Shown here: piece by piece, positions 40,037 through 41,891 of the stretch | How positions within the stretch are numbered: position 1 is the first letter of the stretch | Layout: every line of letters begins with the position of its first letter | DNA from: Bacteroidota bacterium | GTDB lineage: Bacteria > Bacteroidota > Bacteroidia > Chitinophagales > Chitinophagaceae | Assembly (NCBI GenBank): GCA_018267725.1 | Contig: JAFDXY010000018.1 | Span: 62,001 to 126,000 of the forward strand | Direction: 5' to 3' | Length of the DNA: 64,000 nucleotides | The notes under the pieces: model-generated | The model's database searches: none | What the model saw: only the letters and a program-made list of their open reading frames with translations | Told to the model about the DNA's origin: nothing | Translations under genes and position numbers: made by a program

Positions 40037-40984
40037 TTATCCTTCCATAACTTTTTTCCATAATTCAGGAATACGTTTTATCCAAACCAATTCTCTTCTT
40101 TTAATTGAAGCATCTTCTGCCGGATAACCAAAATAAGTTTTATCTCCTTTTAATGATGAAGGCACACCGCTTTGTGCCAACACAACTGCATTAGCACCAA
40201 TGGTTAAAGTTTTGCTTACACCAACTTGCCCCCATAATGTTACACCATCTTCAATTGTTGTTGCACCTGCAATACCAACTTGTGCAGCAAACAAACAATT
40301 TTTACCAACAACAGTATCGTGGCCAATGTGTACCATATTATCTATAATAGTTCCTTTACCAATTTTTGTTTCATGTGTTACACCTCTATCAATAGTGCAG
40401 CTAGCACCAATTTCAACATTATCTTCAATTATAACAGTTCCGCAACTTTTCATTTTTTTAAACCAAACATCTCTGTTTTTTTTGCTGTTATAATAAAATG
40501 CATCACTGCCAATTACAGTGCCGGCTTGTATTACAACATTATTTCCCAACACACAATAATCCATAATAGTTACATTAGGATGAATAATACAATTATTGCC
40601 AATAGTTACATTATGCCCAATAAATACATTTGGCATAATAACAGTATTTTCTCCAATAGTTGCAGTATCGCTAATTTGTTTTGTGTACGGAATAAAAGGT
40701 CTAAAGTGTTCAACAATTTTTAAATAGGCTTCAAAAGGTTGCTCTGTAATTAGCAATGCTTTGCCTGTTGGTACAACAACATTTTTTGTATTAATAATAA
40801 TAAATGTTGCATTACTGTTTAAACATGTATCGTAATATTTTGGATGATCAACAAAAGCTAAATCACCTTCTTCAACTTTATGAATTTCATTTATACCTAA
40901 TGCATTAGCAGTTGTATTGCCAATTAATTCTGCATTAATTAATTCTGATAACCATTGTAATGAAACGGGTGAAGGAAACTTCAT
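40037..40984 (-). CDS. lpxD: LpxD-like UDP-3-O-acylglucosamine N-acyltransferase
   Basis: 315 aa: N-terminal LpxD uridine-binding domain (about 1-95, EIHKVEEGDLAFVDHPKY) and a left-handed beta helix of hexapeptide repeats (about 105-270), with GSDAFYY, IGASCTIDRG, DNMVHIGHD (position of the catalytic His) and GKNCLFAAQVGIAG. C-terminal helices carry FGYPAEDA. LpxD transfers a hydroxyacyl chain in lipid A synthesis. It is about 30 residues shorter than E. coli LpxD, and Bacteroidota often have two LpxD-type genes, so this could be the paralogue rather than the essential enzyme. Confidence 0.88.
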   Translation of the reverse strand: MKFPSPVSLQWLSELINAELIGNTTANALGINEIHKVEEGDLAFVDHPKYYDTCLNSNATFIIINTKNVVVPTGKALLITEQPFEAYLKIVEHFRPFIPYTKQISDTATIGENTVIMPNVFIGHNVTIGNNCIIHPNVTIMDYCVLGNNVVIQAGTVIGSDAFYYNSKKNRDVWFKKMKSCGTVIIEDNVEIGASCTIDRGVTHETKIGKGTIIDNMVHIGHDTVVGKNCLFAAQVGIAGATTIEDGVTLWGQVGVSKTLTIGANAVVLAQSGVPSSLKGDKTYFGYPAEDASIKRRELVWIKRIPELWKKVMEG

Positions 40985-41224: not shown

Positions 41225-41356
41225 ATGAAGAGAAAAACAAAACCGCAATTCACATATTATTTTAAAATGTTAATAAAATTCTTTCTGTTTTTTTTTGAGT
41301 TGGTAAAAACTATTTATAATATTGTGATGGAAACGAAAGTTTCCGGTACTTACTAA
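41225..41356 (+). CDS. Candidate 43-aa small membrane protein
   Basis: Short reading frame in the 450-bp gap between the lpxD-like gene and GNAT. It encodes a basic N-terminus (MKRKTKPQF), a hydrophobic/aromatic segment of about 20 residues (FKMLIKFFLFFFELVKTIY) and a polar tail ending KVSGTY. The stop is 15 bp before a strong terminator, as expected of a real transcription unit. Against it: AT-rich DNA yields such Phe/Lys/Ile-rich frames by chance, and a good promoter lies inside it, suggesting the transcript may instead be an sRNA. I recognise no family. The remainder of the gap (40985-41224) shows only the lpxD-like promoter. Confidence 0.3.
   Translation: MKRKTKPQFTYYFKMLIKFFLFFFELVKTIYNIVMETKVSGTY
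41294..41324 (+). promoter_or_regulatory. Promoter-like element before the sRNA candidate
   Basis: TTTG (41294-41297), exactly 19 bp, then TAATATTG (41317-41324), one mismatch from TAnnTTTG. Predicted start about 41329-41332. Confidence 0.42.
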
Positions 41357-41397
41357 CCCATCCATATACAAAGCTTCGCTTCTGCGAGGCTTTTTTA
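41329..41397 (+). ncRNA. Candidate small RNA or leader ending in a terminator
   Basis: From the predicted start the RNA opens with a perfect hairpin GGAAAC-GAAA-GTTTCC (41329-41344; a GNRA tetraloop), a 26-nt unpaired stretch, then a terminator (41371-41397): about 68 nt in all. GATGG (41326-41330) could alternatively pair with CCATC downstream. The next start codon (GNAT) is 39 bp after the T run, so it may be a 5' attenuator of GNAT or an independent sRNA. No known RNA family was recognised. Confidence 0.35.
41371..41397 (+). terminator. Rho-independent terminator in the lpxD-GNAT gap
   Basis: AAGCTTCGC (41371-41379)/GCGAGGCTT (41384-41392), one G-U pair, loop TTCT, then a run of T. It is unusually GC-rich for this gap and does not follow any annotated long gene. 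Confidence 0.85.
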
Positions 41398-41435: not shown

Positions 41436-41891
41436 ATGAAAATTTACCAAGCAATACATACCGATTATATTATAACAACCAATAAAAATAAAATTGATAT
41501 TAGTGTTGTACATAATTATTTATCTAATAAATCTTATTGGGCAAAAAATATTCCGTTGCATGTTGTGCAACGTTCAATAGAAAATTCATATTGTTTTGCA
41601 TTATTATATAAGCAAGAGCAAGTTGGCTTTGCAAGGTTAATTACCGATTATGCAACCTTTGCTTATTTGGCAGATGTGTTTATTGTAGAAGCACATAGGG
41701 GTAAGGGTTTAAGCAAACTACTAATGCAATTTATTCATAACAACGCCGAAGTACAAGGATTAAGAAGATGGCTATTAGGAACAAGAGATGCACATGAATT
41801 GTATAAACAATTTGGTTGGAAAAATTTTAATGAAGAGCAAGCCAAACGTTTTATGCAATTGCATAATCCAAATGTGTACAATGAAATTTAA
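41436..41891 (+). CDS. GNAT family N-acetyltransferase
   Basis: 151-aa acetyltransferase: strands around CFALLYKQEQVGFARLITDYATFAYLADVFIVEAHRG, with the acetyl-CoA-binding RGKGLSK (R-x-x-G-x-G/A type) and GLRRWLLGTRDAHELYKQFGW. The set YLADVF, GTRDAH and YKQFGW matches a widespread GNAT subgroup of unknown substrate. Cytosolic. A terminator lies just 39 bp upstream of its start, so expression needs a very short promoter region or readthrough. Converges with the PLP enzyme gene (8-bp gap). Confidence 0.9.
   Translation: MKIYQAIHTDYIITTNKNKIDISVVHNYLSNKSYWAKNIPLHVVQRSIENSYCFALLYKQEQVGFARLITDYATFAYLADVFIVEAHRGKGLSKLLMQFIHNNAEVQGLRRWLLGTRDAHELYKQFGWKNFNEEQAKRFMQLHNPNVYNEI

Follow-up and report, generated by a model that had tools for sequence, protein, structure and literature searches.

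RNA sponges, complementary pairs of small RNAs (sRNAs) such as CrfA/SisA, and cell-cycle sRNAs are already known. SroC and ChbBC are mRNA-derived decoys, that is, UTR-derived sponges. The two elements described here, A and B, recall them in that B-type tags at the 3′ ends of recA and bacilliredoxin genes resemble 3′UTR ligands of an sRNA. They differ in that such tags sit on different genes in several genera and in that the universal partner, B, is a separate short gene. Another sponge system is CrfA/SisA-D of Caulobacter crescentus, whose CrfA and SisA were recovered with Hfq (PMC12559287). As proposed for A and B, two kinds of trans-encoded sRNAs pair and one inactivates the other. Unlike CrfA/SisA, A and B occur in a Bacteroidota host, in a family with no Hfq above the search cut-off in 21 relatives, and have a nearly invariant, family-wide stretch of 15 complementary nt and DnaA-box-like promoters.

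The cell-cycle sRNAs EcpR1 (PMC4414408) and CcnA (PMC8959179) act on the mRNAs of cell-cycle regulators. A and B are likewise small RNAs with a link to replication or cell-cycle control, but here the link consists only of DnaA-box-like promoter sites and closeness to repair genes. Riboregulation in Bacteroidota is poorly charted; GibS of Bacteroides thetaiotaomicron (PMC7366714) is an sRNA of the same phylum but belongs to another order, and in the draws searched A was confined to Chitinophagaceae. Neither Rfam nor the literature searched contained a pair that spans a family, matches over 15 nearly invariant bp, has DnaA-box-like promoters, and recurs as tags on recA.

Results and discussion

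Architecture of element A

The window, a 64,000-nt stretch of a Chitinophagaceae genome (hereafter the host genome), contains a gap for which a sequence-only reading had offered three options: an sRNA of about 68 nt, a small membrane protein, or an attenuator of the neighboring GNAT gene. The features from which that reading started are all present (Table 1), namely a strong terminator, a promoter-like pair at 19-nt spacing, a GNRA-capped hairpin at the predicted start, and a 43-codon frame overlapping the unit. The sRNA option is strongly supported, with promoter, 5′ hairpin, invariant strand, and terminator kept family-wide; the protein and the attenuator did not stand.

Table 1. Coordinates of element A and its surroundings in the window, with element B of the same genome
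Feature	Position	Strand	Remarks
Small RNA A (predicted), ~68 nt	41330..41397	+	ends deduced from promoter/terminator geometry; conservation; folding z = −5.0
−33 element TTTG	41294..41297	+	19 nt 5′ of TAATATTG; T-rich conserved position in relatives
−7 element TAATATTG	41317..41324	+	alignments of relatives; Bacteroidota type
5′ hairpin GGAAAC-GAAA-GTTTCC	41329..41344	+	pairing preserved among relatives
Invariant single strand TACTTACTAACCCAT	41347..41361	+	perfect complement of ATGGGTTAGTAAGTA in element B, G000:C31:373869-373883
Intrinsic terminator of A	41370..41396	+	10-bp stem 41370-41393, then T run
Upstream box 1, CAATTCACA	41246..41254	+	degenerate here; TTATCCACA/TTATTCACA in most relatives
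Upstream box 2, TGTTAATAA	41268..41276	−	TTATTAACA on − strand; one mismatch from TTATNCACA; TGTGAATAA in most relatives
43-aa frame, judged non-coding	41225..41356	+	open in 11/137 relatives
lpxD-like gene	40037..40984	−	divergent neighbor of A, context only
GNAT gene	41436..41891	+	variable neighbor, outside the A unit
Element B, 5′ of radA	L228:1520-1617 = G000:C31:373817-373914		second conserved small RNA unit

The Bacteroidota −7 consensus is TAnnTTTG, and promoters of this type lie outside the coverage of the sigma-70 consensus scan that was run on the region. The −7 element is kept in all BLAST-found relatives of the A alignment, which were not selected for it. Positions 41324–41398 fold with −25.1 kcal/mol versus −11.2 ± 2.8 kcal/mol in shuffles (z = −5.0), and the region holds four terminator-like sites versus 1.1 in shuffles. 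Alignments were made of 27 sequences and of 137 loci. The aligned relatives have in common the two DnaA-box-like sites, a T-rich stretch (TTTG in many), TAATATTGTG, the 5′ hairpin with its pairing kept and its sequence variable, the single strand TACTTACTAACCCATC, and a hairpin with T run of variable sequence at the terminator position. The most conserved part of the block is the unpaired segment 41347–41361, and the block is single copy in the host genome.

RNAalifold on a MAFFT alignment returned no structure, the hairpin being misaligned, and per-sequence folding was used instead. A 5′ hairpin of at least 5 bp was found in 94 of 99 distinct relatives versus 33% of shuffles, with two-sided stem changes (for example GGGAAA/TTTCCC, AGGAAA/TTTCCT, TGAGAAAT/GTTTCTCA, and GGGAAT/ATTCCC). 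A combines the sequence features of an intergenic sRNA gene, namely a predicted promoter, a non-coding body, conserved structure, and an intrinsic terminator, and on these grounds it is almost certainly an sRNA.

The other two options of the earlier reading can be weighed against the same relatives. A 43-aa membrane protein would account for an open frame with a hydrophobic segment, and the frame is open also in the sister genomes L010 and, over most of its length, L011. Against it, the frame is open in only the 11 of 137 relatives given above, its start is unconserved, the promoter lies inside it, and conservation tracks promoter, hairpin, seed, and terminator rather than codons; the protein reading is contradicted by the alignment, and we give it almost no weight. 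Hairpins acting as an attenuator of the GNAT gene would agree with the host genome, where the A terminator ends about 40 nt 5′ of the GNAT start. The gene 3′ of A is variable, however, with a GNAT relative in 16 of 102 loci and elsewhere a gene of ~196 aa or YicC, so that conserved linkage is absent; synteny contradicts attenuation, to which we assign an equally negligible chance. On the other side of A, at 85 of 90 loci (24 of 26 in a smaller set), an lpxD-like gene starts off in the divergent direction no more than 800 nt away. It should be noted that radA, lpxD, GNAT, YicC, recA, and bacilliredoxin were named by eye from sequence rather than by profile search, with the RecA C-terminus and, for bacilliredoxin, MYPAEIV... 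as cues.

Distribution of element A

A profile of A matched 85 of 85 Chitinophagaceae genomes among 299 genomes drawn from the order. No strong match was obtained in the other families of that draw, and a 395-genome draw of the phylum gave no convincing match outside Chitinophagaceae. The exact A pattern occurs on at least 119 contigs of GTDB genomes, and named isolates with the pattern include Chitinophaga, Niabella, Niastella, Sediminibacterium, Flavitalea, and others, with taxonomy checked for two genera among them. One match labeled Sphingobacterium is a metagenome-assembled genome and is probably mislabeled. Searched with 4227 Rfam models, the window held nothing at or above gathering threshold, and a relaxed search yielded only chance matches well below it.

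Element B

In the host genome, B is laid out as TTTTG, 18 nt, and TAATTTAG, followed by GAATTTAATGGGTTAGTAAGTAA and a terminator hairpin, and its core GAAUUUAAUGGGUUAGUAAGUA lies between a promoter-like site and a terminator. The RNA predicted from this layout is about 55-60 nt long. The invariant GAATTTAATGGGTTAGTAAGT includes a possible two-codon frame, AUG GGU UAG UAA. About 30 of 37 genomes of the same family have a conserved B. Of the 85 genomes with A, 83 also contain B; it was undetected in G211 and G278 (L386, L481; L482), two 2.3-Mb genomes of genus g61 that keep A. In 28 of 29 loci a co-oriented radA gene lies 3′ of B, at a distance that varies from about 40 to 300 nt (the B terminator ends ~50 nt before the radA start in the host genome), and G006 has B alone without radA. 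In genus g33 (L358-L360; G035, G264, G241), B lies within a hairpin, ACTTAC-GATGGGTTA-GTAAGT, and the promoter region is different.

Complementarity, co-occurrence, and compensatory change in A and B

When the host genome was searched, with G-U pairs allowed, for sequence complementary to the invariant strand of A, the 14-mer had one exact match besides A, and this match lies in B. Family genomes contain about two copies of the 15-mer, one belonging to A and the other to B, and a reversed control occurs in none of the 37 genomes. In a larger draw the 14-mer was found in 134 of 149 family genomes, with control matches amounting in total to only a handful. The 15-nt perfect complement is mostly unpaired in the folds of both A and B. 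The predicted duplex energy is −33.5 kcal/mol and the interaction gain −19.8 kcal/mol; energy alone proves little, because 4 of 3000 random 61-mers gave a lower raw duplex energy. Since the exposed 15-mer of A is the exact complement of B, the two are probably kept to bind each other.

Among 52 genomes with both A and B sequences, 36 have the canonical 15-bp pairing. G366 carries CATTTACTAACCCAT in A and ATGGGTTAGTAAATG in B, and its duplex is still perfect through compensatory double substitutions at two of the 15 bp (U-A to C-G and C-G to U-A); it is the one genome with full Watson-Crick compensation. Differences in G015, G017, G030, G182, and G295 are confined to G-U pairs. One or two mismatches are found in G012, G032, genus g33, G115, G372, G378, and genus g20, and in the last (G022, G304; L354/L366, L355/L367) both A and B changed at the central pair 12, to A.A, which is no compensation. 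Perfect pairing is not strictly required, because several genera carry mismatches; as far as the sequences tell, pairing is favored, not absolute. The sequence features expected of a sponge pair were found: an accessible complement, co-occurrence (85 of 85 for A, 83 of 85 for B), and the compensation in G366, together with the mismatches of some genera. The support for A-B pairing comes from complementarity, co-occurrence, and compensatory changes, and on this basis A and B have very likely been selected to pair.

Both strands are nearly invariant, which points to a constraint over and above the pairing of A with B, namely other targets. A scan of the host genome for mRNA targets, using the seed with at most two mismatches plus G-U pairs, found no excess (184 matches versus 224 for the reversed control), and we therefore claim no mRNA targets.

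DnaA-box-like sites at both promoters

The DnaA-box consensus is TTATNCACA. The conserved DNA of A reaches upstream to a pair of sites resembling this consensus (41246–41276), and the positions of such sites are fixed relative to the A and B promoters. Across 119 non-redundant relatives, the commonest plus-strand box position at A is −71 from TAATATTG, and a minus-strand match is found at −49 in 87. The relaxed pattern TTWTNNACA occurs 5′ of A in 118 of these 119 (14.6 in shuffles) and the strict TTATNCACA in 86 (0.7 in shuffles). For B, the relaxed pattern is present upstream in 45 of 71 (6.0 in shuffles) and absent in 26, and the strict consensus is present in 24 of 71 (0.5 in shuffles). A strict inverted box pair was found in three of ten genomes, at four places, three of them at A. 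The boxes of the host genome are degenerate or weak at A, and none was seen at its B. Boxes of the TTATNCACA type near the promoter, the sequence hallmark expected of DnaA regulation, were found at both A and B, and DnaA control of both promoters seems reasonably likely. An origin of replication, which such sites might also suggest, was rejected: with coarse sampling, A lies away from the GC-skew minimum (minimum at ~690 kb versus A at 966 kb in G026, and at 3.25-3.5 Mb versus 3.89 Mb in G008).

B-type tags on other genes

The B-type 14-mer lies between the recA stop codon and the terminator in G006, G023, G266, G355, G268, and G246, and farther from recA in G007. The recA 3′ tags (L417, L418, L419, L426, L433, L445) were apparently gained more than once. 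In G260, G341, G322, G246, G359, G189, G020, and G129, the 14-mer follows the stop codon of a bacilliredoxin-like gene and precedes the terminator of that gene (L422, L428, L431, L435, L436, L444, L451, L456). G182, G335, and G353 contain free-standing units of the B type. The extra copies suggest a portable pairing tag.

A proposed sponge pair and its alternatives

We consider it likely that A is a stand-alone small non-coding RNA with a 5′ hairpin, an exposed invariant segment of about 15-22 nt, and an intrinsic terminator, which would act in trans by base pairing, its universal partner being B, a short RNA encoded 5′ of radA. Judged from sequence, A and B are probably related as sRNA and anti-sRNA (sponge) throughout the family, with a possible tie to DnaA. 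In the cell, the two would titrate and inactivate each other by forming a 15-bp duplex, and the ratio of A to B would set the amount of free A available for weaker mRNA targets. Titration would most likely proceed without Hfq; none was found above cut-off in 21 relatives, which is in line with long perfect pairing rather than chaperone-aided short seeds. Both promoters may be under DnaA or another TTATNCACA-binding protein, and control by DnaA would couple the switch to replication or to DNA stress. Through the B-type tags 5′ of their terminators, the recA and bacilliredoxin mRNAs would be additional ligands of A.

The main alternative is that B is a radA leader acting as an attenuator and that A is a trans antisense RNA, which pairs before the leader terminator and alters read-through into radA. 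The near-constant position of radA behind B and the short distance from the B terminator to the radA start in the host genome speak for it, as does the location of the A-binding site directly 5′ of the terminator stem; in many relatives, TTTTACTTT after the T run could even extend the B stem into AAGTAA of the pairing site. Against it speak the B of G006, which stands without radA, the variable distance between B and radA, the free-standing B-type copies, and the 3′-terminal B-type tags on other genes. We regard the leader as rather unlikely and lean slightly toward a sponge or mutual titration instead. Pairing might also block the two-codon frame of B, in which case B would work by having a Met-Gly mini-gene translated and A would turn this translation off. 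On the 5′ side, the invariant block of B indeed runs past the pairing region (GAATTTA), and AUG-GGU-UAG-UAA is present in nearly all sequences. Yet CUG replaces AUG in G372, genus g20 has AUG AGU, and the B2 tags in 3′ UTRs lack the GAATTTA context, which makes a mini-gene improbable. Slightly more improbable still is that a sequence-specific protein recognizes the shared 15-mer as DNA at two loci and that the RNAs are incidental. The co-change in G366 would also be expected from such a site, but with respect to promoter and terminator the motif has opposite orientations at the two loci, and it lies within the transcript, shortly 5′ of a terminator. In addition, G-U pairs are common among the variants, the non-complementary co-change of g20 does not fit one shared site, and the exact motif is otherwise absent from the host genome.

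The sponge pair can be extended, tentatively, to a fuller model in which an RNA pairing switch reads out DnaA activity throughout the family, probably without Hfq, and has A and B as its two universal nodes. The two RNAs would be expressed from DnaA-box promoters and annihilate each other through the nearly invariant 15-bp duplex, and individual lineages would add repair or redox mRNAs (recA and bacilliredoxin, with B itself beside radA) by growing the same 15-nt tag before their terminators. If the link among recA, radA, and DnaA is true, RNA pairing would connect replication initiation to recombination; if the DnaA-reading switch is true, the tag would be a modular, portable RNA address that joins replication initiation to recombination and repair. 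With ~100 genera sampled, A-B appears to be a core RNA pair of the whole family, and it is directly testable, in soil strains that grow easily, through its predicted contacts, compensatory evolution, and candidate upstream regulator.

Copies of the A type are found as well, 5′ of terminators in G005, G033, G246, and G272. In two genera (L447, L448), an A-type sequence with a terminator lies in the 3′ UTR of a TonB-receptor-like gene.
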